Program-made: the position numbers and the translations under genes
The notes under the pieces: generated by a model
Told to the model about the DNA's origin: nothing
Database searches by the model: none
What the model saw: the letters and a program-made list of their open reading frames with translations, nothing else
Origin: Aminobacter anthyllidis
GTDB lineage: Bacteria > Pseudomonadota > Alphaproteobacteria > Rhizobiales > Rhizobiaceae
Assembly (NCBI RefSeq): GCF_018555685.1
Contig: NZ_JAFLWW010000001.1
Location: 310,001-374,000 of the forward strand
Length of the DNA stretch: 64,000 nucleotides
Direction: 5' to 3'
Part shown: positions 41,860-60,579 of the stretch, in pieces
How the letters are laid out: each line of letters starts with the position of its first letter
Numbering within the stretch: the stretch's first letter is position 1

Positions 41860-41905
41860 GTCAGTTGCCCCCCCCGTTAGTTCTCTGCGTCTATGGAGAG
41901 ACATT

Positions 41906-42453: not shown

Positions 42454-42678
42454 GTGCATGAAGAGTTCTTAAAGCGCAGCGCGTGTCAAATTGCGGCTCA
42501 ACTGCCCGAAAACGTTGATGATGCGCTCAAGGTGTTGAGTTATGTCAATGATATTCTGGTCAATTTAGGTGGTGGGTGGGGCGCTAGCCAACCATCCGTT
42601 CCGAAAGATCAGGTAGCAGCTCCAGTAATTGCCCTGGTAGCCCGTCGCGCTTACCGAGATATATCCAGTCCAGAGTGA
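42454..42678 (+). CDS. Small phage protein beside the repressor
   Basis: 74 residues from a GTG with GGAGG ten bases upstream (HEEFLKRSACQIAAQLPENV ...). The last 30 codons run antisense to the 3' end of the repressor gene. Function unknown; moderate support. Confidence 0.5.
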   Translation: MHEEFLKRSACQIAAQLPENVDDALKVLSYVNDILVNLGGGWGASQPSVPKDQVAAPVIALVARRAYRDISSPE

Positions 42679-42868
42679 CACCGGTTCTTAGCTGGATCCG
42701 GAAGGCGACATCGAGGTCGGGGCGACGAATACCCCTTTCGTAGTTATTCATAGCGGGCTGCGAAACCTCGATCAGTGCGGCGAATGCCGTCTGGTTCTTC
42801 CCGAGCGCCTCCCTCAGTGCGACGAGGCGCTTCGCTATGTCTTTGTTCGATTTTCCGCCATCTGACAT
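42584..42868 (-). CDS. Phage repressor, XRE-type HTH
   Basis: 94 residues with a lambda-type helix-turn-helix (NQTAFAALIEVSQPAMNNYE) and RRPDLDVAFRIQLRTGVTLD. There is no C-terminal S24 peptidase domain, so induction by RecA-stimulated self-cleavage is not expected. It is divergent from the Cro-like gene with operators between, which makes it the likely lysogeny repressor. Confidence 0.82.
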   Translation of the reverse strand: MSDGGKSNKDIAKRLVALREALGKNQTAFAALIEVSQPAMNNYERGIRRPDLDVAFRIQLRTGVTLDWIYLGKRDGLPGQLLELLPDLSERMVG

Positions 42869-42944: not shown

Positions 42945-42955
42945 ATTGAAGTCAT

Positions 42956-43177
42956 ATGGCACCTGATGTTGGCAAACTGATTGATGAGCTTGGAGGCCCG
43001 TCCAAGGCGGCCGCAGCGCTCGGAATAAAGAACCCCAGTGTCGTCATGAATTGGCGGGCGAGGGGCCAAATCCCCGGCAACTGGGCACGCAAGGTCGAGA
43101 GCCTGACCGGCGTTTCCTGCCACGATCTCCGCCCTGACATTTTCGGCCCAAGCCCTGACCAAGGGGCCGCGGCATGA
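42956..43177 (+). CDS. Cro/YdaS-like antirepressor-type HTH protein
   Basis: 73 residues. KLIDELGGPSKAAAALGIKN then PSVVMNWRARGQIPGNWARK is the YdaS/Cro-like helix-turn-helix. It is the first rightward gene after the operators and probably antagonises the repressor. ATGA overlap with the next gene. Confidence 0.82.
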   Translation: MAPDVGKLIDELGGPSKAAAALGIKNPSVVMNWRARGQIPGNWARKVESLTGVSCHDLRPDIFGPSPDQGAAA

Positions 43178-43476
43178 AATCGAACATCACACCTATCACC
43201 GACCACGTCATGGGTTCGAACTATGATGGAGACATCAAAAGCTTGGTCCATCGGTTGCTGGCGGTCGAGGATCGCATTGACCATGAGAACAAGCTCAAGG
43301 CGCTGATCTTCGCGGAAGCCAAGGTCAACAACGTCGATATCGGCGCGTTGAAGGCGACGATCCGCACAATTCGCTACATGCCGCAAAGCGGAGCCGAAAA
43401 CCTTTTCGGCCTCAGTGAGACCGTCAAGTCCTATCTGGACATCGTCGTTCCGAAACGTGGCTCGGAGAAGCGATAG
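43174..43476 (+). CDS. GapR-like (DUF2312) DNA-binding protein
   Basis: 100 residues. LVHRLLAVEDRIDHENKLKA then LIFAEAKVNNVDIGALKATI aligns with the coiled-coil and AEAK...FD...LR motif of GapR. GapR is the alphaproteobacterial nucleoid protein that grips overtwisted DNA near replication forks. The C-terminal 30 residues are phage-specific. Role in phage replication or transcription is inferred. Confidence 0.68.
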   Translation: MKSNITPITDHVMGSNYDGDIKSLVHRLLAVEDRIDHENKLKALIFAEAKVNNVDIGALKATIRTIRYMPQSGAENLFGLSETVKSYLDIVVPKRGSEKR

Positions 43477-44589
43477 ATGTCGACCTCCGCCGCGCTCCGC
43501 GAAATCTTCACGGCAGGCCGTCCTCTGGTCGAAACGTGGCTTGAGGTTGGCGAGCAGATCGCTGCGCTTCGCGACGTCGCGACCATGAAGGGCCTCGACT
43601 GGTCGCAGGTCAAAGCACTGCTCAAGGCGCAAATCCAGGATGAGCGCGACGACGACGGCAAAGGCAAGCGCGTCAAGCGCATCGTCGAGAAGGCCGAGTT
43701 CGCTTCCGCCTACGCCGACATGCTCGGCTTGGCGAATATGAACGAGAAAATTTATTTTGCCGAAACGACAGCCGACCGTTCCGACGGCGGCGCCAACATC
43801 AACATGCGCCATAGCGGAATTGCGACGGACCTGCCGCCGCATGACGAAGACGGCGTCATTTTCGAAGATGAGCCGGAAACGGCAACGGAATCGCCGAGCG
43901 GCATTGCGACCGGCTCGGATGACCACAGTGGCGATGAGATCGTCACCAATGCGGGAGAGGGCCATGTAGATCGCAGCGCAACCGCGCGCACACCGGCAGG
44001 TGAGGAAGATATTGCGCTGACTGGGCAGGTAGAAACCCAGGTAGATGCTGAAATCATAGACGGGAATGCCTCGCTGGCCGCGCGTGAGGATGAAGAAGTC
44101 GCGGCATTCAATCACGATGTTCCCGTGCATGTCGGGGATGAACGCACGGAACAGCCCGAGGATGGCCTGAGCGCCTCGGGCGACAATTCTGAAATTGAGC
44201 ATTCGGCGCCATCCTCCCAGGTTGCCGCATCGGCTGGCGAGCTAAGCACACCCACCTCGCCAGCCGTCTTTTCTTCCCCTGCCGCTGTTTCTCCACGGGT
44301 TGACGACGGGCGACCTGACCAAAGTTCCGATGAAGTGCCGAGCGGGCAGGGTGGCGACAAGCCAAGGCTGTATAGCGGCCAATCGGGACAACAGACCGCC
44401 AGCGCAGCGCAGGACCGGAATGAGCCGGTATCCGTGAGCGGGGCGTCCGCCACCATTTCCGAAGCCGACGTTCCCGACTTCCTGAAACGCAAAGACGGCT
44501 GCCTCGATCAAGCCGGCTGCAAGGTGAAGACCTATTCCATTCTCTGCGCGCGCTGCGCTGCCGAACGTGTTCGGGCGAGGGCAGCATAA
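43477..44589 (+). CDS. Phage protein with long acidic disordered region
   Basis: 370 residues. The N-terminal 90 are folded (LREIFTAGRPLVETWLEVGE ...); about 100-330 are acidic and Ser/Ala-rich without structure. The C-terminus has a cysteine cluster (DGCLDQAGCKVKTYSILCAR, CxxC) suggesting a small zinc site. Starts one base after the GapR-like stop. Confidence 0.62.
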   Translation: MSTSAALREIFTAGRPLVETWLEVGEQIAALRDVATMKGLDWSQVKALLKAQIQDERDDDGKGKRVKRIVEKAEFASAYADMLGLANMNEKIYFAETTADRSDGGANINMRHSGIATDLPPHDEDGVIFEDEPETATESPSGIATGSDDHSGDEIVTNAGEGHVDRSATARTPAGEEDIALTGQVETQVDAEIIDGNASLAAREDEEVAAFNHDVPVHVGDERTEQPEDGLSASGDNSEIEHSAPSSQVAASAGELSTPTSPAVFSSPAAVSPRVDDGRPDQSSDEVPSGQGGDKPRLYSGQSGQQTASAAQDRNEPVSVSGASATISEADVPDFLKRKDGCLDQAGCKVKTYSILCARCAAERVRARAA

Positions 44590-44750
44590 TGGCCGATCAT
44601 CTCAAGTGGAGAACTGCCGGCTGCCTCGCCTTCTTGGTCTGGGCGTTCATGGCACCCGATGGGGCTCCAGTGGAGAACCTCGCTGCCCTCTTGGTCATTG
44701 CAGCGGTAGCCTTTGCCACTGCTGCCATTCTCAAGGCGCTCGGCAAATGA
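44589..44750 (+). CDS. Small phage membrane protein
   Basis: 53 residues with two hydrophobic segments (GCLAFLVWAFMAP and ALLVIAAVAFATAAILKAL). TAATG overlap with the preceding gene. Confidence 0.62.
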   Translation: MADHLKWRTAGCLAFLVWAFMAPDGAPVENLAALLVIAAVAFATAAILKALGK

Positions 44751-45117
44751 TGCGCGCCTCACCGATCCTGCTGCCGTTCAACGCCCCCCGCCTGGCAGCA
44801 GGTTTCCGTGGGGAGGCTGGAGCGCTTGGCGCTTGCCTCCCCACGGGTTTCGGCCGGTGGTGGGGACGACACTCGGCTGAACTCCATTTTGTACTGGGTG
44901 CCTTGAGCGGCTGCGGTTTCGCGCCTGCTCGGCTCGCCTTGAATTCTGTCGGGACTTTTTGGGGGCCCCGAAGACCCATTGCCACGCCGTTCCAGCCTCG
45001 CAAGCAATCGAGCGGCGTCCTTAGCATCCTGTTCGGTCCACCGTTCGGGGCCGCAGTCCAGTTCCTTTCGTTGCTCGCCCTTGTTCATAGCAAGGACCGT
45101 AACGAAGGATCGGTGAG
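44751..45117. other. 367-base stretch without a confident gene
   Basis: A plus-strand frame from ATG 44750 (140 codons) is start-coupled to the previous gene but has an odd, repeat-like composition. On the minus strand 44731-44979 could encode an 82-residue protein starting MGLRGPQKVPTEFKAS. That loosely resembles the start of P27-type small terminase subunits. Neither is convincing; the second could be a relic. Confidence 0.4.
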
Positions 45118-45522
45118 ATGTCCGGCAAAAGAGTTTCCGAAAACGGAAAAAGAGTTTCCGAGGACGACATGAGTAGTGCAGCGCTATCTGAAGCCACGAA
45201 GTGGACAAAGGAACTTATGGACGCCGAATGGCAGGGCCGTGGGGACAAGGAAAACCTTGTTCGTTATCGCCTCGCCAAGAACATCGGCGTTCGTGAAAGC
45301 TACCTCTATCGGCTCCAGTACAAGAAACAGGAAATGACGGATGTGCGTGGTTCCGTCTACCGCGCGCTGATGTTGGCCCGCCAGTTGTACGGCATCGTCG
45401 CCGCGTCTGGTGAGGCTGCTTACGAAAAAGAAAAGGCACTGGCCGATGCGCGCAATTCGAAAATGGCTGGCCTGGCTGCTGCTGTTGCTGGACCGAAAAT
45501 CCAAAGGACCATGAGCAAATGA
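45118..45522 (+). CDS. Phage protein, function unknown
   Basis: 134 residues. The start region contains a 13-base sequence twice (AAAGAGTTTCCGA), encoding KRVSE twice. Later KNIGVRESYLYRLQYKKQEM looks helix-turn-helix-like. It precedes a tiny membrane gene and a sigma factor, so a regulatory role is possible. Confidence 0.62.
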   Translation: MSGKRVSENGKRVSEDDMSSAALSEATKWTKELMDAEWQGRGDKENLVRYRLAKNIGVRESYLYRLQYKKQEMTDVRGSVYRALMLARQLYGIVAASGEAAYEKEKALADARNSKMAGLAAAVAGPKIQRTMSK

Positions 45523-45611
45523 TGTGGGCTGAAGCAAGTTTCTACAGCGTCGCGGCGATCTGCGTGGCGGCTGTGCTCATCACAATTCTTGTCGTCGCAA
45601 TTCGAGACTGA
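45519..45611 (+). CDS. Very small phage membrane protein
   Basis: 30 residues, a single hydrophobic helix (SVAAICVAAVLITILVVAI). ATGA overlap with the previous gene supports it. Confidence 0.5.
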   Translation: MMWAEASFYSVAAICVAAVLITILVVAIRD

Positions 45612-45635
45612 CCTCCAAAGCGGGGCGTGGGGCAA

Positions 45636-46160
45636 ATGGTCGATTCCGAATTCGGTCTGGCAGTCGAAGCGCAGCGTGCAGGGCTCAAGGCTTCGGCCAT
45701 GAAGCTCGCGCGCAACGTCGACACTGCCAATGACCTTGTTCAGGAGGCCATGGCCAAGGCACTTCGCTACGAGGGTAGGCTGGCACCCGACACCAACATC
45801 GGTGCCTGGATGACGACCGTTCTACGGAATGAGTTCTTCACCCAAGCCCGGAAATCGCAGCGTGTCGCCGCCCTCGATGATCCTGATGCCATCATCGCGA
45901 TGATGCCGGCACCCGATGATCAGGCCGCAGCGCTCGAGGCCAAGGATGCTCTGGCGCGCGTCTTCGAATTGCCGGCCCGCGATTGCAGCGACCTGATGAT
46001 GGTCGGGGCTGGCTTCACCTACGACGAGATCGCCGAGCGTGATGGATCGACCATGAAGGCCGTCAAAAGCCGCATCTGCCGTGGTCGCGAAGAACTTCAA
46101 CAGCGGCTCGATCATCAGCCGAGCCGGCTTCTCGCCGCATATCGAACCCCACACCCCTGA
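45636..46160 (+). CDS. Phage-encoded ECF-type RNA polymerase sigma factor
   Basis: 174 residues. Region 2: DTANDLVQEAMAKALRYEGR, then NIGAWMTTVLRNEFFTQARK. Region 4: ARVFELPARDCSDLMMVGAG with FTYDEIAERDGSTMKAVKSR. The region 2 style recalls EcfG, the alphaproteobacterial general-stress sigma factor. It may redirect host polymerase to phage or stress promoters. No anti-sigma factor is recognised next to it. Confidence 0.8.
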   Translation: MVDSEFGLAVEAQRAGLKASAMKLARNVDTANDLVQEAMAKALRYEGRLAPDTNIGAWMTTVLRNEFFTQARKSQRVAALDDPDAIIAMMPAPDDQAAALEAKDALARVFELPARDCSDLMMVGAGFTYDEIAERDGSTMKAVKSRICRGREELQQRLDHQPSRLLAAYRTPHP

Positions 46161-46172
46161 AAAGGAACGAAC

Positions 46173-46397
46173 ATGAACCACACCGCCAAGGCCTATGGCC
46201 CATCCGATTATGACGCCATGACGCCGCAGCCTGACAACGCATTCAGCCGCCTGGATCGTGCCGTCGATACTCTGATGAAGGCCGAAAGCGTCGTTCGCGA
46301 ACTTGCCGAACAGCTCATTGGCACGGTCCCGGTCCCGATCCAAGGTGGAGAGTCCAAGGGCAGCATCCGTGAGGACGGCCTATGCATGTCGGGCTGA
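46173..46397 (+). CDS. Small phage protein
   Basis: 74 residues (MNHTAKAYGPSDYDAMTPQP ...) with a C-terminal helix SRLDRAVDTLMKAESVVREL. AAGGAA precedes the ATG. No family. Confidence 0.62.
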   Translation: MNHTAKAYGPSDYDAMTPQPDNAFSRLDRAVDTLMKAESVVRELAEQLIGTVPVPIQGGESKGSIREDGLCMSG

Positions 46398-46486
46398 TCG
46401 GCGCTGTCGGCGAGAGGGCCGAGCGGATCACGCTTCTCGCCGAGCGGATCATCAACAGCGCCATGCGCGTCAACTCGCAGCTTTGA
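46382..46486 (+). CDS. Very small phage protein
   Basis: 34 residues (MHVGLIGAVGERAERITLLA ...), overlapping its neighbours by 16 and 1 bases. Evidence is the gene-to-gene coupling only. Confidence 0.42.
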   Translation: MHVGLIGAVGERAERITLLAERIINSAMRVNSQL

Positions 46487-46686
46487 TGCCGGCACCACTC
46501 CGCAAAATCCTGATCCGTCACGCCTCCGAAGATGACGTCGATCAACAGGCCAGAGCAGACATCGAAAGTTCGGAACAGGGGACGGCAGATTATGAGATCG
46601 AACGGCTTTCCATACCTAACCGACACAGTGACGGACCAGGGCTGCGCGAACTGGCCTGCCTGCGGGTGCCAGATCGATCGGTGTGA
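46486..46686 (+). CDS. Possible small phage protein
   Basis: 66 residues from an ATG coupled as TGATG. It overlaps the next, better supported gene by 95 bases in another frame, so it may be partly or wholly spurious. Confidence 0.33.
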   Translation: MPAPLRKILIRHASEDDVDQQARADIESSEQGTADYEIERLSIPNRHSDGPGLRELACLRVPDRSV

Positions 46687-47089
46687 TGCCGACGAACAAG
46701 TGGCCAAGCCGCTCATGGTTGTTCTGCTGAACCTAGCAGCGTGGGTCTTCCTGCTACTCGCTCTCGCTGCGTTCGCGATGGGTGTCGTCGGCATGGTGAA
46801 GGCATATGCCCATGAGGCAGCGAGCGGATGGGATTACCCGCTTAGCTGTTGCTTCGGCACGGCCAGCGGCGGCGATTGCCAAGCGATATCGAGCAAGACC
46901 GTCACCCCGATTGCAGGCGGCTATCGCATCACTTTGGTGCCCGGCGACCACAACCAAGTCACCAAGCCGCATGTGTTCGAAGTGCCGGCCGACAAGGTCC
47001 GCATCTCCGAAGACACCAGCTACCACATCTGCCTGTGGCCGACCGAAGACAAGGTCCAGTGCTTCTTTGCTCCTCCGATGAGCTACTGA
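46592..47089 (+). CDS. Phage membrane protein with cysteine motif
   Basis: 165 residues. AGGGGA lies nine bases before the ATG. N-terminal GCANWPACGCQIDRC suggests a metal site. A membrane helix spans about 42-66 (MVVLLNLAAWVFLLLALAAF). The C-terminal 95 residues, with PLSCCFG and CLWPTEDKVQCFF, are predicted outside. Function unknown. Confidence 0.65.
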   Translation: MRSNGFPYLTDTVTDQGCANWPACGCQIDRCDADEQVAKPLMVVLLNLAAWVFLLLALAAFAMGVVGMVKAYAHEAASGWDYPLSCCFGTASGGDCQAISSKTVTPIAGGYRITLVPGDHNQVTKPHVFEVPADKVRISEDTSYHICLWPTEDKVQCFFAPPMSY

Positions 47090-47090
47090 C

Positions 47091-47831
47091 ATGCGCACAT
47101 CAGACATCATCCCTGGCCTTGTCATCGGCCACCTTACCGTCGTCTCCAAGACGATGAAGACCCTATCGAGCGGACGCAAGATGCCCGCTTGGTCCCTTCG
47201 CTGCAGTTGCGGTGTCGTTGTCGTCGCAATGACGGTCAATCTGACCAAGGGCAAACACATGTCCTGCGGTTGCAAGCGGTCCGAGGCTATCAGCGCCCAC
47301 TATCCCGGCGACACGAAGAAGCCGGAGTATCGCGTCTACCGGCAGATGCTCGACCGCTGCTATCTCGAAACCGCCCCGAACTACGCATGGTATGGCGGGA
47401 AGGGCGTGGCGGTCTGCGACCGCTGGCGGCGAGGCACGAATGAACAGACCGGATTCCAGTGCTTCATGGCTGACATGGGCGAACGCCCGGCGGGCCTCAC
47501 CCTCGAACGCAACGATCCCCGTCTTCCGTACGATCCAGGCAACTGCCGTTGGGCCACTTGGGCCGAGCAGGCCGTAAACCGTCGCGAACACCACTTGTCG
47601 GTTTTCGAGCGGGACGCCCTTCGTCGTCGGCGCAGCGAAGCTCGTCAGGGCGAGAAGGCACCACGGGCGAAGCTCACTGACCAGCAGGTCACCATCATCA
47701 AGCGTCGATTGGCCGAGGGCGCACGCACCTCGGTTCTCGCTGCGCAGTTCGGCATTTCACCGCAGACGATCAGCGGCATCAAGGCCGGTCGGAAATGGAC
47801 GCATATCGTGTCATCGCCGAGGGGCTTCTGA
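47091..47831 (+). CDS. HNH-like homing endonuclease with C-terminal HTH
   Basis: 246 residues. A zinc-ribbon N-terminus (LRCSCGVVV, MSCGCKRSE) leads to the core YRQMLDRCYLETAPNYAWYG, then LTLERNDPRLPYDPGNCRWA. That pattern is shared by many phage homing-type nucleases. The C-terminus has a resolvase-like helix-turn-helix (AEGARTSVLAAQFGISPQTI). It begins one base after the preceding stop. Confidence 0.72.
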   Translation: MRTSDIIPGLVIGHLTVVSKTMKTLSSGRKMPAWSLRCSCGVVVVAMTVNLTKGKHMSCGCKRSEAISAHYPGDTKKPEYRVYRQMLDRCYLETAPNYAWYGGKGVAVCDRWRRGTNEQTGFQCFMADMGERPAGLTLERNDPRLPYDPGNCRWATWAEQAVNRREHHLSVFERDALRRRRSEARQGEKAPRAKLTDQQVTIIKRRLAEGARTSVLAAQFGISPQTISGIKAGRKWTHIVSSPRGF

Positions 47832-47833
47832 TC

Positions 47834-48206
47834 ATGGGCGAACATCTCCTTTTCAGCGAGCACCTGACCGAAGCCAAGTGCGATAGCCCGATCCGAGAAA
47901 CGTTCCTCGGCCAGGCCCATATCGCCGGCACCGGTCCCGAAGGCACGACATGCCGCGAATGCATCTGGTGGCGCCTGATCGGCAAGAAGCGTCAGGCGGG
48001 GGGGGGGCATCGTCGAGTTCGTGAAGGCGCCCGCCTATTTCGGCAAGCGCCACAAGGACGCGCCCGGCGAACTCAAGAAGCAGCGCTGTACCCGGCCAAT
48101 CCTAAACAAGGCCAATCGCCTCATTCCTCATCACGCCAAGTCCTGCCGGCTGTTCGAACAGAACGAACAGGCACCTGTGGCCAAAAAGCTGGTCGAGGGT
48201 AAGTGA
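47834..48206 (+). pseudogene. Zinc-motif phage protein interrupted by a poly-G frameshift
   Basis: The first frame runs from ATG 47834 (GEHLLFSEHLTEAKCDSPIR ... TCRECIWW). The second frame carries the rest (IVEFVKAPAYFGKRHKDAPG ... HHAKSCRLFEQNEQ) to a stop coupled to the next gene. They join at a run of ten G (47998-48007); nine or twelve would be in frame. CxxC on one side and HxxxC on the other suggest one zinc site split by the shift. Cause: indel, sequencing error or slippage. Confidence 0.72.
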
Positions 48207-48727
48207 TGGGCAAGCGCAGCGATTTCCCCCGTCGTCCCATGGACGGCTACCAGACCATCGACCCGCGCGCAGTGGCAGCGCTGGTGCCATATCTCGCTGG
48301 CGTCGAGACGTTCGCTGAGCCTTGTGCCGGCGAGGGCCATCTGATCCGCCAGTTGGAAGGTGCCGGCCTTCGCTGTGGCTATTCCGGCGATCTCTCGACT
48401 GGTCAGGATGCGCTCAAGATCAAGTTCTTCGACGGCTACGACGCGATCATAACGAACCCGCCTTGGACCCGCGAAATCCTTCACCCGATGATCCGTCATT
48501 TCCAGCGCATGGCGCCGACGTGGCTGCTGTTCGATGCGGACTGGGCTCATACCGGCCAATCCGCACCATTCATGGCCCAGTGCAGCCACATCGTTTCCGT
48601 CGGTCGACTGCGCTGGATCGAAGGCACCAAGCACACCGGCAAGGACAACGTTGCTTGGCATAGGTTCCATGCCCAGCACCACGAAGGGCCGCGCTTCGTC
48701 GGGCGTCCAATGAAGGAGGCCGCATAG
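48206..48727 (+). CDS. Phage adenine-type DNA methyltransferase (NPPW)
   Basis: 173 residues. SAM motif FAEPCAGEGHLIRQL and catalytic motif AIITNPPWTREILHPMI, the NPPY/W type of N6-adenine methyltransferases. There is no recognisable target-recognition domain, so specificity is unknown. TGATG-coupled to the previous gene and directly followed by a GcrA-like gene. A non-DNA substrate cannot be excluded. Confidence 0.75.
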   Translation: MGKRSDFPRRPMDGYQTIDPRAVAALVPYLAGVETFAEPCAGEGHLIRQLEGAGLRCGYSGDLSTGQDALKIKFFDGYDAIITNPPWTREILHPMIRHFQRMAPTWLLFDADWAHTGQSAPFMAQCSHIVSVGRLRWIEGTKHTGKDNVAWHRFHAQHHEGPRFVGRPMKEAA

Positions 48728-49345
48728 ATGCTCGCACCATCCTATCAACCACACGAAATCGTCAAGATCGGCGAACTGCTTAAGGATCGCAAAAGCGCTT
48801 CCCAGATCGCGGCCGAGATGAGCGCCATGCGCGGGAGCAAGATTTCCCGCAACGCGATCATCGGCAAGGTGCATCGGCATCCGATCCTGAAGGCGATCGG
48901 GTTCGCTGAAAAGAAGTCGCCGACAAGCAAGAAGGGCGTGCTCGCAAAGCCGGCCAAGACGGTCGAGCGCCTGAAGCCGTCCAAAACACCCGATGCTCTG
49001 CTCCACGCGAAGCTCACCAGCACGCGGGCGCATACGGGGCCGACAGCACTGCCGGCGCGCCTGCGGGTGGCCATGTCCAATGATTTCGAGGGCTCATTCA
49101 TGGAAGTCGCCGACCTCGCCATCCTCACCAACGTTCCGCGCCCCCGCGCCGAAGACCTCGGCGACCCCAAGGCATATGACGCCGAAAGCCGGGGTATCCC
49201 GCTGCTTGAGCTTGCGCGCCATGATTGCCGCTGGCCGGTGAACGATGCCGAGAAGGGGGCTGAGCATCTGTTCTGCGGACGTCCCTCCGCACCTGAGCGT
49301 CCTTATTGCCGGGCCCACTCCCTTCGCGCCGTGCAGTGCAGGTAG
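48728..49345 (+). CDS. Phage GcrA-like cell-cycle regulator
   Basis: 205 residues. N-terminal IGELLKDRKSASQIAAEMSA with SRNAIIGKVHRHPILK is the GcrA helix-turn-helix. C-terminal CRWPVNDAEKGAEHLFCGRP with YCRAHS is the GcrA metal/sigma-binding part. Host GcrA binds sigma-70 and works best at CcrM-methylated GANTC sites. Here the gene follows a methyltransferase, so phage control of methylation-sensitive transcription is inferred. The central linker is long and basic. Confidence 0.8.
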   Translation: MLAPSYQPHEIVKIGELLKDRKSASQIAAEMSAMRGSKISRNAIIGKVHRHPILKAIGFAEKKSPTSKKGVLAKPAKTVERLKPSKTPDALLHAKLTSTRAHTGPTALPARLRVAMSNDFEGSFMEVADLAILTNVPRPRAEDLGDPKAYDAESRGIPLLELARHDCRWPVNDAEKGAEHLFCGRPSAPERPYCRAHSLRAVQCR

Positions 49346-49353
49346 GAGGCCAG

Positions 49354-49686
49354 ATGCCAGCCCCATCGATCCGCAGGCAGATCAATTTCGAGTTGAACCC
49401 CAAGGTCTACGACACCTTGGCGGCGCGCGCGAAGCTCATGGGCTACACCCCATCGGCTTATGCTCGCCTGTTGTTCGATGCTGCATTTGCGGAACGTGTC
49501 GGATGGGAAAAGCAGAACCCGGCAAGCAATCCTGATCTGGATGAAACCGTTCGGGCCGTCTTCTGCCTCGCCGGCCAGTTCGAACCGGCCACGATTTCAC
49601 GGGTCACCGGTGCGCCTGAGACGCTGATCAAGAAAATCCTTTCGGGCTGGAAGGCTCATTCGAAGTCGTCGGCGAGGGCAATATGA
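49354..49686 (+). CDS. Phage protein, possible ribbon-helix-helix
   Basis: 110 residues from ATG 49354 with AGGAGG upstream. IRRQINFELNPKVYDTLAAR then AKLMGYTPSAYARLLFDAAF fits a ribbon-helix-helix DNA binder. The C-terminal half has a second helical unit. Regulatory role inferred. Confidence 0.62.
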   Translation: MPAPSIRRQINFELNPKVYDTLAARAKLMGYTPSAYARLLFDAAFAERVGWEKQNPASNPDLDETVRAVFCLAGQFEPATISRVTGAPETLIKKILSGWKAHSKSSARAI

Positions 49687-49877
49687 CCCTCCAGGACAAA
49701 CTCGACTGCATCAACGGCATCATCCAATCCAAGATGACATGGCTCGAGCAGCACGGCCAAGGCCGCGGCAAGCGCCCAGACCACGAAATCGAGCAGATGC
49801 GCGCCCAAGTCGAAGCCCTGCACGAGATCGCTGATGACTATCGGAGATCGATAGAGCGGAAAGGGGCTGCGGCATGA
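49683..49877 (+). CDS. Small phage coiled-coil protein
   Basis: 64 residues, helical (EIEQMRAQVEALHEIADDYR). ATGA overlap on both sides. Confidence 0.65.
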   Translation: MTLQDKLDCINGIIQSKMTWLEQHGQGRGKRPDHEIEQMRAQVEALHEIADDYRRSIERKGAAA

Positions 49878-51226
49878 ACGCCATAGCTCGCCAAAGCACC
49901 GTCTCCGACATCATCGATGAGTATGATGCGAAGGCCGCCAGTGTGGAACAGGCCATCAAAGCCTACGAAGACGCCTGCACAGCTATCGAAATGGCAGGCA
50001 CCATCATGGGCACTTATGTAGAGCCGATATTGCGCGGCAAGGCCTACGTCCACGCCGACAACATGCGCAAGAACCTTGTGTCGTCGGGTTGGAAGGCGAT
50101 CTATTCCCGTCTGAATATCGACCGGATCGCCAGCGCCAAGGACAAGAAGCTTTTCGAGCGCACGCTGGCAGCGCCGCCGGAACTGACGTTCGACAACGCC
50201 AAGGCTACGTTCGGGCCTTATCTGGAGAACCCGCGCTCGCACATTCTTCGCGGACTTGCCGAAACATTCGCGGATCTTGATCCCGCGTACAAGTCGCACA
50301 GCAAGGTGAGGATCGGTGTCAAAGGGCTGCCCAAGCGCGTCATCATAAGCAGTTGGGGCAACTATTCCGGTACATACGGCAAGGACAAGTTCCGCGACAT
50401 CGTGAACGCGCTTGCTGCCTATCGCGGCCAGCCGCTCATGGAATGGGAAGAGTTCAACGCCATCGCCATGATGCACCGGGCGGGAGGGGATGGCATCCTT
50501 GACGGCCGGGAAGCTTCAGAGACCGATCGCTACGGCAAGGTGACAACTGCCCAGACTATCGACCGTGGGATGACGGTTCGAACCTTCAGCAATGGCAATG
50601 CTCATGTGTTCTTCGCGCCGGACACGCTGACGGACATTAACAAAGCACTCGCCGAGTTCTATGGCGAAGTTCTGCCTGATGCGGAGGAAGAGGAAGCTAA
50701 GCCGCGCGCCGGCACGTCGGTCTCCAAAGACCTGCAATTCTACTGGTCGCCGGCTGATGTTGTCGAACGCGCGCTCGAGTTTGCGGGCGTCTACAATCTC
50801 CGTGAATGGCGCAATAACCCACCTGAGCCGTCGCGCATTCTTGGCGGCGATGGCCGGATCATGGATGCAATCAGGTCGCACGGGCACCGTGCGTTCGGCA
50901 TCGAGTACCACTCCAGCCGCGCCGCTGAGGCGAGAGCCAAAGGCCACAATGTCCTGACGGCAAACTTCCTCGAATGCCCGGTTAAGCCGGAGTTCGATTT
51001 TGTGCTGATGAACCCGCCGTTCTATGGCCGGCACTACGTCAAGCATGTTCGCCATGCGCTGCAGTTCTTGAAGCCGGGCGGCATCCTCGTTTCGATCCTC
51101 CCGGCGACAGCCTGGTACGACCATGGCGAACTCAAAGGCGAATGGCGCGACCTGCCAGTTGGCAGCTTCGCCGATGCAGGCACGAACGTGCCGACGGGGC
51201 TGTTGAAAATCCGGAGGCCGGCATGA
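49874..51226 (+). CDS. DUF4942-like protein with N6-adenine methyltransferase domain
   Basis: 450 residues. The N-terminal 270 residues resemble DUF4942, often fused to phage and plasmid methyltransferases. The C-terminal 170 are a SAM methyltransferase with IEYHSSRAAEARAKGHNVLT and catalytic FVLMNPPFYGRHYVKHVRHA. It is the second adenine-type methyltransferase of the phage. Likely protects phage DNA or alters host methylation; specificity unknown. Confidence 0.8.
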   Translation: MNAIARQSTVSDIIDEYDAKAASVEQAIKAYEDACTAIEMAGTIMGTYVEPILRGKAYVHADNMRKNLVSSGWKAIYSRLNIDRIASAKDKKLFERTLAAPPELTFDNAKATFGPYLENPRSHILRGLAETFADLDPAYKSHSKVRIGVKGLPKRVIISSWGNYSGTYGKDKFRDIVNALAAYRGQPLMEWEEFNAIAMMHRAGGDGILDGREASETDRYGKVTTAQTIDRGMTVRTFSNGNAHVFFAPDTLTDINKALAEFYGEVLPDAEEEEAKPRAGTSVSKDLQFYWSPADVVERALEFAGVYNLREWRNNPPEPSRILGGDGRIMDAIRSHGHRAFGIEYHSSRAAEARAKGHNVLTANFLECPVKPEFDFVLMNPPFYGRHYVKHVRHALQFLKPGGILVSILPATAWYDHGELKGEWRDLPVGSFADAGTNVPTGLLKIRRPA

Positions 51227-51498
51227 CGCAAGTGCAATGGGCTGGCCCGCTGTTCTATCCGCCTGTCGGAATGATCGCTGTCATGGACAGCGGCTCGCGT
51301 ATTGAGGTTTGGCCAGACGAGTCCGAGTCGAAAGACTGCTTTACAGGCGTGATGTTGCTCGAAGGCCGGACAGATGATCAGCGCGCCGTTTTCGATACAT
51401 CATGCATGTGGGGCCGCTGCTTCATCGATCACATCGAAACCCCGACGGAAACCGACTTACGGCTCGGTGGCTTGCTCCGAGAGGATCCCAATGCATGA
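51223..51498 (+). CDS. Small phage protein
   Basis: 91 residues (TQVQWAGPLFYPPVGMIAVM ...), beta-rich. ATGA overlap with both neighbours. Confidence 0.65.
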   Translation: MTQVQWAGPLFYPPVGMIAVMDSGSRIEVWPDESESKDCFTGVMLLEGRTDDQRAVFDTSCMWGRCFIDHIETPTETDLRLGGLLREDPNA

Positions 51499-51869
51499 AA
51501 CAGGAACGGATGACGGCGGCCGAATTCCGCGCGGAAAAGCCCAAGCCGAAACGCAACAAGTACGGTGCCCGCAAGACTGTGCTCGACGGCATCACCTTCG
51601 ATAGCAAGGCAGAAGCCAACCGTTGGGGCACGTTGAAGCAGTGGGAAAAGCTTGGCGTGATCTACGATCTGCGCCGGCAGGTCTGGCACGAACTGAAGGC
51701 CGCCAACGGGGCCGTAGCCTGCCGGTACCGCGCCGACTTCGACTATTTCGATACGAGTTCAGGACTGCCCATCACTGAGGATGTGAAGGGTGTGTTGACG
51801 CGGGATTTCAAGGTCAAGGCCAGGCTCTTCAAGGAGCAGTACGGCCGCGAGATCAGGATTGTAAAATGA
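51495..51869 (+). CDS. DUF1064 nuclease-like phage protein
   Basis: 124 residues. NKYGARKTVLDGITFDSKAE, RADFDYFDTSSG and EDVKGVLTRDFKVKARLFKE follow the DUF1064 pattern, a PD-(D/E)XK-type fold thought to act as a phage endonuclease. Candidate for DNA end or junction processing in replication. Overlaps both neighbours by ATGA. Confidence 0.78.
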   Translation: MKQERMTAAEFRAEKPKPKRNKYGARKTVLDGITFDSKAEANRWGTLKQWEKLGVIYDLRRQVWHELKAANGAVACRYRADFDYFDTSSGLPITEDVKGVLTRDFKVKARLFKEQYGREIRIVK

Positions 51870-52411
51870 CCGACAGACAGCCAATCAGCAAGCGGCTGCG
51901 CTTTGAAATATTCAAGCGCGATGAATTCACGTGCGCCTACTGCGGTGCGCATCCGCCGGATGCCTTGCTTGAAGTAGACCATATCCACCCGGTGGTTGCC
52001 GGCGGTGAGAATGACCAAGACAACCTTGTCACGGCTTGCTTTGACTGCAACCGGGGGAAGGGCGCGAAGCTACTGACGTCGGTGCCTCAGTCCCTTGCAG
52101 ATAAGGCGAATGAGACAGCAGAACGTGAAGCTCAAATCCGCGCCTACTACGAAATCCTCCAGGCAAAGAAGGATCGTAAAGAGGACGAACTATGGGCTGT
52201 GGCCGACATCTATATGGAGCGGTTCAGCGACGACAGCATCCTTCGTTCGCGGCTCGCCAGCATCCGCATGTTCCTGGACCGACTGGACTATTTCACCGTC
52301 ATCGAGGCCATGGAATTGGCCACCAACAAGATGCACAGCAAGGCACCGGCCTTCCGCTATTTCTGTGGAGTTTGCTGGCGCCGCATTATAGGTCACGGGG
52401 GCAGCGAATGA
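51866..52411 (+). CDS. HNH endonuclease with C-terminal extension
   Basis: 181 residues. RLRFEIFKRDEFTCAYCGAH, LEVDHIHPVVAGGENDQDNL and TACFDCNRGKG form a classical zinc-bound HNH nuclease. The C-terminal 100 residues are helical. It lies among replication genes with tight overlaps, so it may be part of the phage core rather than a free homing gene. Confidence 0.82.
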   Translation: MTDRQPISKRLRFEIFKRDEFTCAYCGAHPPDALLEVDHIHPVVAGGENDQDNLVTACFDCNRGKGAKLLTSVPQSLADKANETAEREAQIRAYYEILQAKKDRKEDELWAVADIYMERFSDDSILRSRLASIRMFLDRLDYFTVIEAMELATNKMHSKAPAFRYFCGVCWRRIIGHGGSE

Positions 52412-52932
52412 GCCGCATCCGTTCCCTCCATCCTGGATTTTTCACTGATGAGAGGATGGTCACCGCCAGTTTCCCGGCGCGGCTCGTGTTCCTTGGCCTT
52501 GGTGTTGAATCCGACGACAAGGGCATATTCGAGTGGAAGCCAATCACGCTCAAGATGCGGCTCTTCCCGGCAGACAATATCGACGTGGCATCGATGCTCT
52601 CCGAACTGGAGGCTGTTGATGCAATCCGCTGTTACGAAGTTGACGGCCGTAAGTACGGCGCAATTCGGAATTTCAGGAAGTATCAGCGGCCAAAAACTCC
52701 GAATGATATCCATCCCATCACCCCTGAAATCCGAACGTACGTCCTATTACCGGAGGTGACTTCGGAAAAGCCACAGGCTGAAGTCACTCCATTTCCCCAA
52801 AAAGGGGAAAAGTCTCCGCAGATGGAGGAGGGAAGAGGGAGAGAAGGAAAATCTGGCGATTTTCTCAAGCGCGCAAGCGCGCAAAAAAAGACTGCCGAGG
52901 GTTTGATCATGGGAGCATTCGCCAATGACTGA
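52408..52932 (+). CDS. Phage replication protein, O/DnaD-like
   Basis: 174 residues. SRIRSLHPGFFTDERMVTAS then ARLVFLGLGVESDDKGIFEW and LFPADNIDVASMLSEL is a winged-helix pattern shared by many phage replication initiators. The tail is charged and flexible. With the DnaA-like gene two genes on it probably helps start phage replication. Confidence 0.72.
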   Translation: MSRIRSLHPGFFTDERMVTASFPARLVFLGLGVESDDKGIFEWKPITLKMRLFPADNIDVASMLSELEAVDAIRCYEVDGRKYGAIRNFRKYQRPKTPNDIHPITPEIRTYVLLPEVTSEKPQAEVTPFPQKGEKSPQMEEGRGREGKSGDFLKRASAQKKTAEGLIMGAFAND

Positions 52933-53572
52933 CCTCATCGCCAAAGACGCCTTTGATCGCCTTCCCGAGCAATATCGGAAACGTGCCAGAGAGATCGCTG
53001 CACGGGTTCGTGACATCGATGCCGTCCTGAAACCATGTGAGCCGGCCAAGATCGGCGAGGCCGTGGTGCGCATGTTCCGCCAGTTCCGGGATCAGCCTGG
53101 TGTCGACCATGCCGACATGGCCGCCGAGTACCGGACGGCATGTTTTGATCTGCCGGAATGGGCGGTGTCCGAAGCGGCGAACGATTTCCTCGCCGGCCGC
53201 GTCGAAAACCACACCGGGCAGTTCATGCCGACATGCGCCGAGTTTGCGCGGCGGGCACGGCACATTCTGACGCCCATTCTGGCCGAACGCTCGGCGCTGC
53301 GTGTCGAGGCCGGGAAGTTGGTCGAGCGCGCCGAAGATGATCGCCGCCGGCATCTGATCGAACTGGAGCGGCACGACCCGAACGTGCGTGATCGTGTTGC
53401 TGCTCTGGCCGAAAGCGCTGCCGCTGGCGGGTTGAAGCGGGGCGCGCTGACGCATACCGGGCTGAGCGCGGAGAAGCAATCACGCCTTGATGCGCTGAAA
53501 AGGCCGCGTTCATTTGAATCCAAGATCACCACAACCAGGATCGGCAAAGGCGAGGCTCGCAATGCACGCTGA
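52925..53572 (+). CDS. Phage replication-module protein
   Basis: 215 residues, helical. Central MFRQFRDQPGVDHADMAAEY and FMPTCAEFARRARHILTPIL resemble proteins in the helicase-loader position of phage replication modules. No catalytic motif. Overlaps the preceding gene by 8 bases. Confidence 0.6.
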   Translation: MTDLIAKDAFDRLPEQYRKRAREIAARVRDIDAVLKPCEPAKIGEAVVRMFRQFRDQPGVDHADMAAEYRTACFDLPEWAVSEAANDFLAGRVENHTGQFMPTCAEFARRARHILTPILAERSALRVEAGKLVERAEDDRRRHLIELERHDPNVRDRVAALAESAAAGGLKRGALTHTGLSAEKQSRLDALKRPRSFESKITTTRIGKGEARNAR

Positions 53573-54044
53573 ACACCAAAACGCGATGTACAGCCGGCAA
53601 TTCGTTCGCGCGGTCTTAGCACGGCGCCAGGAACAGGCGCGGCTCGCCGCCATGGCGCAGGAAGCTGCAGCCAGCGAGGCCCGACGGGTGGCGCAGCAAC
53701 AGGCTGATCGGGCTCTGAGGGAAGAACGAGCGGTCGAAGAATACCGCGTCATCGATGTGAGCGGAGGAACTGATCGGCTCCCAGCCCGAAGCATCATCGA
53801 GCGCGTTTCGAGAGCCACTGGCATCCCATATGCCGAGATCGTCGGGGCATCGCGGAGTCGTCCTATCGCCGAAGCCAGAATGATCGCGATGTACGAGATT
53901 CGGAAACGGCGACCGGATTTCAGCTTGCCGCAGATCGGGCGGATCTTCGGCGGTCGGGACCATACGACGGTTCTGCATGCCGTTCGCAAGATCGAAGGCC
54001 AACGCGCCGGCGAATCCGCGAAGGAGCCCGCTCAATGCGCCTGA
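53562..54044 (+). CDS. DnaA domain IV-like DNA-binding protein
   Basis: 160 residues. After a coiled coil rich in Arg/Ala/Gln, the C-terminal 85 residues match the origin-binding domain of DnaA: IIERVSRATGIPYAEIVGAS, IAMYEIRKRRPDFSLPQIGR, signature IFGGRDHTTVLHAVRKIEGQ. The AAA+ domain is absent. It could bind DnaA boxes in the phage origin or compete with host DnaA. Coupled to the next gene. Confidence 0.85.
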   Translation: MHAEHQNAMYSRQFVRAVLARRQEQARLAAMAQEAAASEARRVAQQQADRALREERAVEEYRVIDVSGGTDRLPARSIIERVSRATGIPYAEIVGASRSRPIAEARMIAMYEIRKRRPDFSLPQIGRIFGGRDHTTVLHAVRKIEGQRAGESAKEPAQCA

Positions 54045-54349
54045 CCACGGCTCAATCCGAATTGCTCGAGCAGATCATCGGCGGCTTGGCGCTGTGGTGC
54101 CATTTCGACAGGGAACGCACGGTCTGGTGGACGCTGGAGCCGAACGGGCAAGAGGTTTCACATTCACTGGTCGAAGCGCTGATGACCAAGGGCGCGCTGC
54201 TGTTTGGCGAGCCTCAGCGGAAGCCTGGCGGGCGGTCTGATGCCCGGTATGTGGTGACTGATCGCGGTCGATCTGGGGTGGTGCTCAAAACGCCAGTTTC
54301 CATCCCGGAAGCCTTGGAAACTATGGTTTTGGAGGTGGTGCCCAAATGA
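54035..54349 (+). CDS. Phage protein, function unknown
   Basis: 104 residues (MRLTTAQSELLEQIIGGLAL ...), winged-helix-like ending (ARYVVTDRGRSGVVL). Overlaps both neighbours. Confidence 0.62.
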   Translation: MRLTTAQSELLEQIIGGLALWCHFDRERTVWWTLEPNGQEVSHSLVEALMTKGALLFGEPQRKPGGRSDARYVVTDRGRSGVVLKTPVSIPEALETMVLEVVPK

Positions 54350-54678
54350 CACCCAAGCAAGCCTACAATCTCCTTTTTGCTTATGACGAGTGTCAGAAGC
54401 CCGCCCGGCAGTGGACCCCGTTCGAGATGAAAATCGTTCTTCATCATTACGGCAGCATAGCTGAATTCGGCGGCTGTGCCGCACCGATCTACCCAGAGAC
54501 AATTTCTCGGTTGAAGGAACTTGGCGTCTTGGAAGACCGGATTGCCACACATGATGAGGACAAGAACCCATATCAGACAACCGTTCTCGGAAACGCCCTC
54601 GTCGAGATGTGGTGTCAGCAGCCTCTCCCTGTCGTGACCTATGTCGACCCACGCTTTGCGGAGGGCCAGCCACGATGA
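54346..54678 (+). CDS. Phage winged-helix-like protein
   Basis: 110 residues. ETISRLKELGVLEDRIATHD and YQTTVLGNALVEMWC resemble a winged-helix sensor for the end of a gene. ATGA-coupled on both sides. Confidence 0.6.
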   Translation: MTPKQAYNLLFAYDECQKPARQWTPFEMKIVLHHYGSIAEFGGCAAPIYPETISRLKELGVLEDRIATHDEDKNPYQTTVLGNALVEMWCQQPLPVVTYVDPRFAEGQPR

Positions 54679-54875
54679 GCGACCAGCCCAAATGCTCGAA
54701 TTGCGACAGCACTGGATGGGTTTGCGAGAACCATCCGCATGTCTCATGGGGTGATGGTGACGGCTGCTGTGGCGGTGCCGGCGAGCCTTGTCGGGTCTGC
54801 AACATGGAATCGCCGCCGCGCGAGCTTGCTGGCTCTACAGTCATCTGGACCGCTGCTGATGGGTGGGCGAACTGA
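54675..54875 (+). CDS. Small cysteine-rich zinc protein
   Basis: 66 residues with CSNCDSTGWVCENH, GDGCCGGAGEPCRVC: a DnaJ-like zinc-ribbon pattern. One-base overlap with the next start. Confidence 0.68.
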   Translation: MSDQPKCSNCDSTGWVCENHPHVSWGDGDGCCGGAGEPCRVCNMESPPRELAGSTVIWTAADGWAN

Positions 54876-55069
54876 TGAGCGGTAAAACAACAGCATTCGT
54901 CTGCTGGCTTGTAGGGCACAAGCCTGTGTCTACGCTCAGCCGATCACCCAACACCGTCTATACGCACATGCGCAAAGAGACCTGCGCGCGTTGTGGAAAG
55001 GTGCTGGTGGAAGAGCGCATGTACTACGACGCGCGCACCGAGCCCGAGATGTTTCGAGGGGACAAATGA
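54875..55069 (+). CDS. Small phage zinc-ribbon-like protein
   Basis: 64 residues. CARCGKVLVEERMYYDARTE gives one CxxC pair, with GHKPVST at the front. ATGA overlap with the NusG-like gene. Confidence 0.66.
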   Translation: MSGKTTAFVCWLVGHKPVSTLSRSPNTVYTHMRKETCARCGKVLVEERMYYDARTEPEMFRGDK

Positions 55070-55611
55070 ACGAAGATATTCCCAAATGGTATGTCCTGCG
55101 TCCGACGATCCGCGGCGATCGCCGTGCCGCCGAAGAATTGAAGGAAGCCGGCATCAACCATTTCGTGCCGACCTTCAATCGCATCACATTGGTCCGCCAT
55201 ACCAAGGCACAGGTCAAAACGGTCGAGATGCTGCTTATGCCGGGCTATGTCTTCGCCCAGCTATCGATTGAGCAGACGAAAACCGTCAACAAGCATAACC
55301 GCAAGTTCCAGCATGTGGCCCAGATCGTCAGGGTTCCGGCGACGGATCGCGCCATGCCGGTCGATGCCAAGGCCGTCGAGCAGTTGCGCTATCTCTGCGA
55401 TACCAACTCATTCGATCAAGGCAAGCGCGCCGGTTCCGGCTTCGTCCATGGCGACAAGGTTCTGATCATCGGCGGCCCGTTCGACAACATCGTGGCCACA
55501 TTCAGGGGCGGCAAGGTCAAGCCAGGCTTTGCAAAGCTCATTCTCTCCAAGATGTTCGGCAGCAAGGATATCGAGGTTCTTGTGCCTGATGATCTGATAC
55601 AGGCGGCGTAG
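55066..55611 (+). CDS. Phage NusG/RfaH-like antitermination factor
   Basis: 181 residues. An NGN-type N-terminal domain (PKWYVLRPTIRGDRRAAEEL, with MLLMPGYVFAQLS) and a KOW-type C-terminus (HGDKVLIIGGPFDNIVATFR). NusG paralogues travel with RNA polymerase and can suppress termination. Its position as one of the last genes before the packaging genes suggests it lets polymerase reach the long late operon. Confidence 0.83.
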   Translation: MNEDIPKWYVLRPTIRGDRRAAEELKEAGINHFVPTFNRITLVRHTKAQVKTVEMLLMPGYVFAQLSIEQTKTVNKHNRKFQHVAQIVRVPATDRAMPVDAKAVEQLRYLCDTNSFDQGKRAGSGFVHGDKVLIIGGPFDNIVATFRGGKVKPGFAKLILSKMFGSKDIEVLVPDDLIQAA

Positions 55612-55620
55612 GAGGAAGTG

Positions 55621-56895: not shown

Positions 56896-57489
56896 ATGCC
56901 TGCCCTATCAAACCGCAAATGGGAAGCATTCGCGCAGAGGCTCGCTGAGGGTGAGCCGGCATACAAGGCCTACGAGAGCGCCGGGTATGCCAGTAACCAC
57001 GGCAACGCGAGCACTCTAAACAAGAATCAAAAGGTTCAAAACCGCGTGGCCGAGATACTGGCCGAGCGGGAACAGGCTGAGCGTGAAGCCACCAAGAAGG
57101 CCATTAATGCCATCGGAGTCACCAAGGAGCAGGTGATCGAAGAACTGCGGCGCATCGGCTTCGCAGATATCCGCAAGGCGGTCAAATGGGGTCCAACCCA
57201 GCGCATTAGCGAGATGATAGACGGATCGATCGTGATGTCCAACGGCGTCACGCTGATCGACAGCAGCGACATCGACGATGCCACGGCTGCGGCCATTTCC
57301 GAGGTGGGCAACACCAAGGAAGGCATCAAGATCAAGTTCCACGACAAGAAGGGCGCGCTGATCGAGCTGCTGCGCCTGTTGAACGTGTCGGCGCCGCCCA
57401 AGGCCGAGGATGAGCCCCAGCCAGGGGCCGATCTGCCCGCCGGCAGCAATGTTGTGCATTTCGATGCCGCGCTTAAGCGGTTTGGGTGA
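56896..57489 (+). CDS. Terminase small subunit
   Basis: 197 residues. NRKWEAFAQRLAEGEPAYKA with YESAGYASNHGNASTLNKNQ and a coiled coil (RVAEILAEREQAEREATKKA) is the small terminase DNA-binding plus oligomerisation pattern. It recognises phage DNA for packaging and partners the large subunit 12 bases downstream. Confidence 0.85.
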   Translation: MPALSNRKWEAFAQRLAEGEPAYKAYESAGYASNHGNASTLNKNQKVQNRVAEILAEREQAEREATKKAINAIGVTKEQVIEELRRIGFADIRKAVKWGPTQRISEMIDGSIVMSNGVTLIDSSDIDDATAAAISEVGNTKEGIKIKFHDKKGALIELLRLLNVSAPPKAEDEPQPGADLPAGSNVVHFDAALKRFG

Positions 57490-57500
57490 GGCGAAAATGA

Positions 57501-60576: not shown

Positions 60577-60579
60577 CCC

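Follow-up and report, generated by a model that had tools for sequence, protein, structure and literature searches.

A temperate phage, dormant as a prophage in its soil-bacterium host, encodes counterparts of several proteins that the host uses to control DNA replication and gene expression. On balance, the stretch of rightward early and replication genes in this rhizobial phage is best explained as an assortable kit: DNA-binding regulators of host type that would chiefly serve the phage's own DNA. Its genes are gained and lost between phages; GapR and GcrA are mutually independent, and GcrA and a DnaA domain IV (DnaA-IV) form a recurrent pair. Moreover, the DNA-binding heads of the first rightward genes are interchangeable, a new point that goes beyond the original prediction, which had described one prophage with relatives of five host regulators (GapR, ECF sigma, GcrA, DnaA and NusG) and two methyltransferases as a possible cell-cycle programme. 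The following features were assigned in the window, i.e., the whole 64,000-nucleotide stretch of DNA that was analysed:

31254..32681, plus strand: integrase (DUF6538 and Phage_integrase; Pfam 2.4e-7)
36794..37666, minus strand: RecT recombinase of the leftward arm (Pfam 8.3e-25)
42584..42868, minus strand: CI-type repressor (HTH; HTH_3 1.7e-11)
42956..43177, plus strand: Cro-like gene, the first rightward gene, named by position alone
43174..43476, plus strand: gene A, putative divergent GapR-like protein ('p1' family; hhalign probability to host GapR 90%)
43477..44589, plus strand: gene B, with a helical head ('p8'), a low-complexity linker and a four-cysteine tail
45636..46160, plus strand: ECF-type sigma factor (sigma-70 region 2, E 5.8e-9)
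48206..48727, plus strand: small methyltransferase, NPPW (phrog_799 'DNA methyltransferase', E 3.8e-32)
48728..49345, plus strand: GcrA-like protein with both conserved ends (PF07750, 1.6e-19)
49306..49686, plus strand: small gene after GcrA (relatives in L371, 3.6e-22, and L377, 1e-22)
49874..51226, plus strand: DUF4942 with methyltransferase, NPPF (DUF4942, E 2.2e-32)
51495..51869, plus strand: DUF1064/resolvase-like (start chosen inside the searched frame 51402-51869)
52408..52932, plus strand: replication initiation protein (phrog_1408, 1.6e-26; start taken from the profile match within frame 52192-52932)
53562..54044, plus strand: DnaA domain IV (PF08299, Bac_DnaA_C, 1.3e-23)
55066..55611, plus strand: NusG paralogue, UpxY/RfaH-type antiterminator (PF02357, E 1.3e-11)
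56896..59210, plus strand: terminase small and large subunits (family match)
60857..63160, plus strand: SU10-type portal protein, start uncertain (Pfam 8.3e-28)

The prophage's left end is probably close to the integrase, which has a glycosyltransferase gene immediately to its left. The Cro-like gene, which follows the minus-strand repressor, has a relative in the equivalent place in Devosia (L238, E 2e-32), and every gene with a family match from 43174 to 63160 is a plus-strand frame, a layout consistent with the predicted rightward early operon. The small gene at 49306, whose true start probably lies inside that frame, has its relatives downstream of GcrA in two other prophages.

Profile searches did not misplace two or more of the five regulators, and all five family placements stand, GapR as a divergent relative only. 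The GcrA-like protein passes the curated PF07750 cut-off (71.3 bits, cut-off 26.9) over residues 19-203 of 205, and both its N- and C-terminal parts align with a solved GcrA chain (8e-9), the N-terminal part weakly. The 53562 product (160 amino acids) is a domain IV without AAA+: PF08299 is its sole Pfam match, no AAA+ ATPase domain was found in it, the DHTT signature is present, and it matches the solved DnaA chain 1j1v at 7.8e-13. The sigma factor, with regions 2 and 4 only, passes the NCBIfam sigma70-ECF cut-off (58.5 bits, cut-off 42.9), with region 4 (24.5) slightly below the Pfam cut-off of 25.7. The NusG domain of 55066 likewise passes its Pfam cut-off (45.2 bits, cut-off 22.2); the nearest named family is the UpxY antiterminator (E 1.7e-16), NCBIfam subfamily cut-offs are missed, and the protein shows a 76% match to a prophage in genome G006.

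GapR is a tetrameric ring that binds overtwisted DNA. Gene A yielded no match to Pfam PF10073 (GapR) at E<=1, and against NCBIfam GapR it reached 16.3 bits (E 0.0078) where 140 are required; thus, its predicted GapR/DUF2312 placement failed in Pfam, but profile-profile comparison supports a divergent relative. In particular, its four-member family (relatives in L003, L156, and L238) aligned with a 31-sequence host GapR profile at an hhalign probability of 90% and a score of 36.9, against 18.9 for the best of 200 column-shuffled controls, and the homology at profile level covers a helical core with an FAEAK..D..ALk motif. A host-GapR HMM placed 43174 first among 38 window frames (E 5e-4), and the Devosia family member scored 21.5 bits against the PF10073 cut-off of 22.6. 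In related phages, the head of gene B is swapped for a true GapR domain and the linker and four-cysteine tail are retained; the preceding gene, in the position of 43174, shows similar head variation. The head of 43477 is predicted to form three helices, one long and two further (pLDDT 78.7). Its homology to GapR is weak (hhalign score 20.8 against 19.3 for the highest of 200 shuffles; probability 11%), and GapR was absent among the matches listed for its fold in a limited comparison of 10 chains. A single-sequence tblastn search of 50,697 phage records gave no match for 43174 or 43477 and one each for GcrA and NusG; scans of viral sequence with either of the latter two proteins alone returned no relatives.

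These sequences allow a further reading, offered tentatively, in which the first two rightward genes would be a reassorting GapR-type pair that gives each phage its own DNA clamp, replacing or outcompeting host GapR, and in which this pair, together with the GcrA/DnaA-IV pair, would amount to rebuilt host control of replication and transcription. In the same tentative scheme, three head types (true GapR, the divergent 43174 type, and the 43477 type) would be exchanged between phages and partly between both genes, joined to four-cysteine, MUG113/T5orf172, or ParB-like tails.

The two adenine-type methyltransferases of the original prediction were recovered as methyltransferase matches, the term 'adenine-type' being drawn solely from the NPPW/NPPF motifs. 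The CcrM counterpart of the host network did not emerge: the N6_N4_Mtase Pfam domain of CcrM-type enzymes, presumably PF01555, is absent from 48206 and 49874 at E<=1, and judging from their domains, both enzymes are not CcrM-type. The 48206 product shows a 64% match to phage RHph_I3_18, and 49874 a 30% match to protein 079 of RHph_TM3_3_3 over 402 aligned positions. According to section 3.4 of PMC5537653, GANTC is methylated by phage enzymes that resemble these two in size, motif, and gene location. In that section, the GANTC-specific enzymes PhiLM21_p027, Phi2LM21_p21, Phi3LM21_p21, and those of Paracoccus prophages have 179/218 amino acids (small) or 456/599 (large) and, like those of the window, an NPPW/F/Y motif and genes upstream of replication genes (PMC5537653). 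The one known GANTC enzyme compared, p027, could not be aligned with 48206 (E 0.086).

The layout is similar to that of two isolated rhizobial phages, phiLM21 and RHph_TM3_3_3; thus, its parts are not new. Sinorhizobium phage phiLM21 (KJ743987) has a similar order of repressor, Cro, p022, methyltransferase p027, DnaB, DnaA p033, NusG p034, and terminase, in which p022 occupies the position of 43477 and p033 is a DnaA-IV; p034 has no blastp match to 55066, and no GapR or GcrA profile match was found in 14 of the 26 annotated coding sequences of record stretch 8000-24000. In Rhizobium phage RHph_TM3_3_3 (MN988468), the repressor, DUF2312, two methyltransferases, DUF1064, and DnaA-like genes are ordered as in the window, with methyltransferase 079 and DnaA-IV 086 in shared order. 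Its protein 071 (annotated DUF2312) is a GapR domain with a four-cysteine tail, so that the gene B head there is a true GapR; unlike the window, the compared stretch has no GcrA or NusG annotation. Within 10 kb, Devosia ZB163 repeats the window's order of Cro, gene A, gene B, GcrA, and NusG. A 2025 survey of phiLM21-like prophages tabulates ORFs for GcrA, DnaA, and UPF0335, the GapR family, each in a row of its own (PMC12429752). The phiCbK-like Caulobacter phages, which are large siphophages of 205-280 kb, also encode a phage GcrA; it was discussed in cell-cycle terms already in 2012 and proposed to alter the host replicative state (PMC3556154), and the word GapR is absent from the available portion of that article. 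Erythrobacter phage R34L1 carries a phage GapR, claimed as the first in any phage genome and labelled an auxiliary metabolic gene, with no fusion described in the available portion of the report (PMC12185513).

Co-occurrence was counted in 73 non-redundant loci picked by DnaA-IV, from a set of the best 80 of at least 492 confirmed among 600 candidates; L005, nearly identical to L004, was left out, L213 duplicates L154, and L240 duplicates L155. Some of the loci matched by the phage-trained profiles for DnaA-IV and GcrA are themselves part of those profiles. Within these 73 loci, GapR was found in 24, on the DnaA-IV strand in 23 and upstream of it in 21, and GcrA in seven. The check gave a divided answer: GapR and GcrA were present together at chance (2/73, 2.3 expected; Fisher p = 1.0), but GcrA adjoined DnaA-IV in five of the seven loci with both (expected 0.73, p ~8e-5, with mechanical ORFs of at least 100 amino acids as the null and a final sum from rounded values). 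In 10 prophage loci picked by GcrA, eight of them chosen by eye among the matches listed with at most 11 candidates scored per genome, no DnaA-IV lay within ~10 kb. None of the three genes occurred in 120 stretches of viral sequence selected by an arbitrary 14-base pattern, a control unmatched for host group, and seven RecT-picked loci held GapR once, GcrA twice, and DnaA-IV never; thus, the single-gene base rate in rhizobial phages may be high.

These counts bear on the proposal that the set is one selected programme, in which the phage rebuilds the host GapR/GcrA/DnaA/adenine-methylation circuit, timing its replication to, or freeing it from, the cell-cycle stage; CtrA is the central regulator of the host circuit. 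Such a joint programme is possible and agrees with the location of all genes in one early region, the recurrence of GapR/GcrA/DnaA-IV-type genes among the early genes of other phages, the GcrA/DnaA-IV adjacency, the clustering of all three in no more than 2.4 kb of the viral contigs L162 and L236, the position of GapR behind GcrA in L373 (immediately adjacent) and L377 (one gene further on), and the phage enzymes of CcrM-like specificity (PMC5537653, section 3.4). The independence of GapR and GcrA, the GcrA-picked loci, and the absent CcrM-type enzyme nevertheless make it rather unlikely, as does the lack of site enrichment. Of 24 GANTC sites between 42869 and 63405, none falls in the non-genic DNA of the right arm (1303 bases, ~1.5 expected from length), which gives no sign of phage promoters as GcrA targets; the whole window has 22 DnaA-box sites with at most one mismatch where 37 would be expected, with no cluster, and neither kind of site marks phage promoters.

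It is similarly doubtful that the proteins are anti-host factors, i.e., partial or diverged copies competing with their host counterparts (DnaA, GapR, and GcrA) and halting host replication and division. The DNA-binding signature of DnaA-IV, retained without an ATPase domain, and the large divergence from the host copies (GcrA 39% over the last 50 amino acids, DnaA 42%) are in keeping with this; however, the genes are located within a run of replication and regulatory genes, and in other phages (L171, L175, and RHph_TM3_3_3) replication genes likewise precede DnaA-IV. Ordinary drift, with unrelated host regulators captured at different times and sharing no common role, would fit the patchy presence across relatives but is highly improbable given how alike the genes' order and placement are in phiLM21, RHph_TM3_3_3, Devosia, and the window, the common tails with swapped heads, and the GcrA/DnaA-IV adjacency.

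The assortable kit is favoured by the similar gene order in the three relatives, the strand and position of GapR, its independence of GcrA, and the empty 120-stretch control; the few DnaA-box sites, the missing non-genic GANTC, the weak homology of 43477 to GapR, the scarce tblastn matches, and the unmatched control count against it. Such a kit might work as follows. Once the repressor is lifted, 43174 and 43477 would make GapR-type proteins acting on phage DNA topology during replication and transcription, and the ECF sigma factor and the GcrA-like protein would guide the host's RNA polymerase to promoters of the phage or of the host. The methyltransferases may mark phage DNA, and DnaA-IV, which lies in the replication gene cluster, may bind DnaA-type sites and either support or divert initiation; finally, the NusG/UpxY-type protein would carry the polymerase onward into late genes.

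Phage GcrA, GapR, DnaA-IV, and GANTC-type methyltransferases have previously been reported singly. Viewed together, as a single early region of recurrent order with its often paired GcrA and DnaA-IV and its GapR fusions of exchanged heads, they constitute a defined set for genetics in rhizobia, and the fusions are natural GapR variants for studying how proteins sense overtwisted DNA.

The temperate phage spans the region from an integrase to past the right end of the window, which covers positions 310001-374000 of contig C1 in the 6.7-Mb host genome (G000). Its main features are the following:

31254, integrase, probably near the left end of the phage
leftward arm, RecT and further genes
42584-42868, HTH repressor
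42956, rightward, Cro-like gene, followed by rightward genes up to the terminase and portal
43174-43476 (+), divergent GapR-like protein
43477-44589 (+), helical head (p8), low-complexity linker and four-cysteine tail
45636, ECF sigma factor
48206 and 49874, two methyltransferases
48728, GcrA-like protein
53562, DnaA domain IV protein (DnaA-IV)
55066, NusG-like protein
56896-59210, rightward, terminase
downstream of the terminase, rightward, SU10-type portal

When 42000-64000 was compared with 50,697 phage records, the nucleotide match consisted of a single 92-base piece in the small terminase gene of phiLM21 (81%). Words of the ATCACG..CGTGAT type, spotted by eye at 42931-42948 and 41905-41950 near both divergent promoters, are possible repressor operators. 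Three HNH endonuclease genes lie in or near the early region (47091-47831, 51866-52411 and 59977-60576).

The gene at 43477 belongs to a type in which the head is exchanged on a common body. In a prophage of the same genus (G006; locus L143), the protein in this place starts with a true GapR domain (E 4.2e-13) but continues with the linker of the window protein (94% across 32 aa) and ends in its C-terminal tail (52% across 50 aa). A tail profile built solely from seven GapR-headed proteins and searched against 1048 proteins returned five of the six p8-headed proteins as its top five matches (E 4.6e-13 to 0.027; 2.1e-5 for that of the window); the sixth, from L156, was absent from the match list. 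The GapR head with the four-cysteine tail is found in the viral or prophage loci L003, L143, L159, L171, L209, L224 and L232 and in RHph_TM3_3_3 071, and the p8 head with this tail in the window, L154, L155, L156, L157 and Devosia sp. ZB163 (L238); L004, L153 and L239 have p8 frames in which no such tail was seen. L381 was also counted among the loci with either head on the common linker and tail. The preceding gene varies as well. In the window, L003, L156 and L238 it encodes a GapR of the divergent type; in L155 (8557-9006), an incomplete GapR domain that covers profile positions 3-54 of 72, followed by MUG113/T5orf172; in L159 (2005-2484), 39 residues resembling the p8 head, with MUG113; and in L157 (9362-9991), a T5orf172 protein. 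In L175 and L217, GapR heads are joined to a third tail type, which looks ParB-like, although a family search of L175 gave no ParB-type match. The L175 protein aligns with phiLM21 p022 along 366 positions at 43% identity. The p8 head, possibly itself a GapR relative, is modelled as three helices and scored 20.8 against the GapR profile (shuffle maximum, 19.3); GapR was not among the rows of a ten-chain structure comparison for this head. The main hint that p8 and GapR heads may function equally is their exchange in the same place. The frame that follows, 44567-45172, has no match in Pfam or PHROG, but the G006 prophage conserves 99 aa of it at 60%, and phiLM21 p023 agrees with it at 50% across 30 aa.

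The assignment of 43174 to GapR, as originally predicted, held in profile-profile comparison but not at the Pfam GapR threshold, below which the protein falls. A four-member profile of its family matched 31 host GapRs with a probability of 90% and a score of 36.9 (200 column shuffles: mean 11.0, maximum 18.9), and the Devosia member reached 21.5 bits against a Pfam cut-off of 22.6. Relatives are rare: among 297 genomes from the family, G000 itself was the single one with the gene; none of the 50,697 phage records has it, and it occurs in the viral contig L003, then L156 and L238. 43174 is taken as a probable divergent GapR.

The other regulators were placed as predicted, all above their Pfam cut-offs: GcrA (71.3 bits; cut-off 26.9), DnaA domain IV (83.2; 31.5), NusG (45.2; 22.2) and the ECF sigma factor, via sigma region 2 (36.1; 24). 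By sequence, the NusG relative appears to be of the UpxY/RfaH kind rather than a housekeeping NusG. Alignment to solved GcrA indicates that the phage protein keeps both the DNA-binding N-terminal part and the sigma-binding C-terminal part. The GGRDHTTVLHA.RKIE signature of solved domain IV (1j1v) is also present in the phage DnaA protein, in which an AAA+ domain was looked for and not found. The host has its own GcrA (C12), DnaA (C27), standalone DnaA-C protein (C12) and GapR (C26), and over the aligned parts the phage copies are 39% (GcrA) and 42% (DnaA) identical to those of the host. The standalone host domain IV protein (G000:C12:361620-361829), present besides DnaA, belongs to a type of approx. 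130-200 aa that many relatives also have.

The prediction that these genes form a joint set found partial support: among DnaA-IV loci, GcrA and DnaA-IV are often neighbours, but GapR and GcrA occur together at chance level. Among the best 80 of 492 confirmed viral loci picked by the phage DnaA-IV, 23 carried GapR or the 43174 type, eight GcrA and two both (E<=1e-5). None of the three genes was found at this threshold in 120 viral stretches chosen by an arbitrary 14-base pattern, which are shorter on average (1.01 vs 1.33 Mb in all); seven RecT-picked loci contained GapR once, GcrA twice and DnaA-IV never. With further DnaA-IV loci added, duplicates dropped and E<=1e-3, 74 loci remained (73 without L005), and in these 73, GapR occurred in 24, GcrA in seven and both in two (2.3 expected; Fisher p = 1.0); thus, the two show no mutual attraction among DnaA-IV loci. 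GcrA and DnaA-IV, however, were neighbours (gap <=300 bases) in five of the seven loci (0.73 expected, p 8e-5). All three genes lie inside 2.4 kb in L162 and L236; in the window, GcrA and DnaA-IV are 4.2 kb apart. In ten GcrA-picked prophage loci (G006, G013 and eight others), GapR was nearby in four, once on the opposite strand, and DnaA-IV in none. The nine p8-headed loci (window, L004, L153-L157, L238 and L239) included GcrA in four, DnaA-IV in five and an adjoining GapR-type gene in four; NusG, for which seven of the nine were searched by Pfam profile, was present in four (window, L153, L154 and L238). In L376 (9062-10278), GcrA lies directly 3' of a 52925-type gene, a slot held by DnaA-IV in the window and L171.

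The methyltransferases are a 173-aa protein with NPPW (48206), for which 39 of the 50,697 phage records hold a relative (E<=1e-3; best 64%; hosts mostly alphaproteobacterial), and a 450-aa protein with DUF4942 and an NPPF methyltransferase (49874), which is 30% identical to RHph_TM3_3_3 079 over 402 aligned positions. A Pfam domain search of both proteins led to rejection of a CcrM-type identity. Phage enzymes that are unrelated to CcrM but similar to these in size and motif have been shown to methylate GANTC, and their genes lie upstream of replication genes (PMC5537653). By analogy, GANTC specificity is a fair guess for the window enzymes, yet 48206 gave no alignment to PhiLM21_p027 (E 0.086). 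Neither GANTC sites nor DnaA boxes indicate targets within the phage. GANTC is depleted there, but arbitrary viral stretches show that the depletion is not specific.

Published work describes GcrA in phiCbK-like phages (PMC3556154) and GapR in an Erythrobacter phage (PMC12185513), and for phiLM21-like prophages it lists GcrA, DnaA and UPF0335 ORFs, each in a row of its own (PMC12429752); a paper on CtrA states that GcrA, SciP and DnaA sites are not unevenly spread across phage genomes (PMC9437464). Titles and abstract openings among the matches listed contained neither GapR fusions nor an account of the set as one programme. Parts of these kinds are known, and the region as a whole is similar to that of rhizobial phages already isolated. 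What is new is the pair of GapR-type genes with exchanged heads and the proximity of GcrA to DnaA-IV. As a hypothesis, the GapR, GcrA, DnaA and methylation genes may together constitute a cell-cycle programme of the phage.
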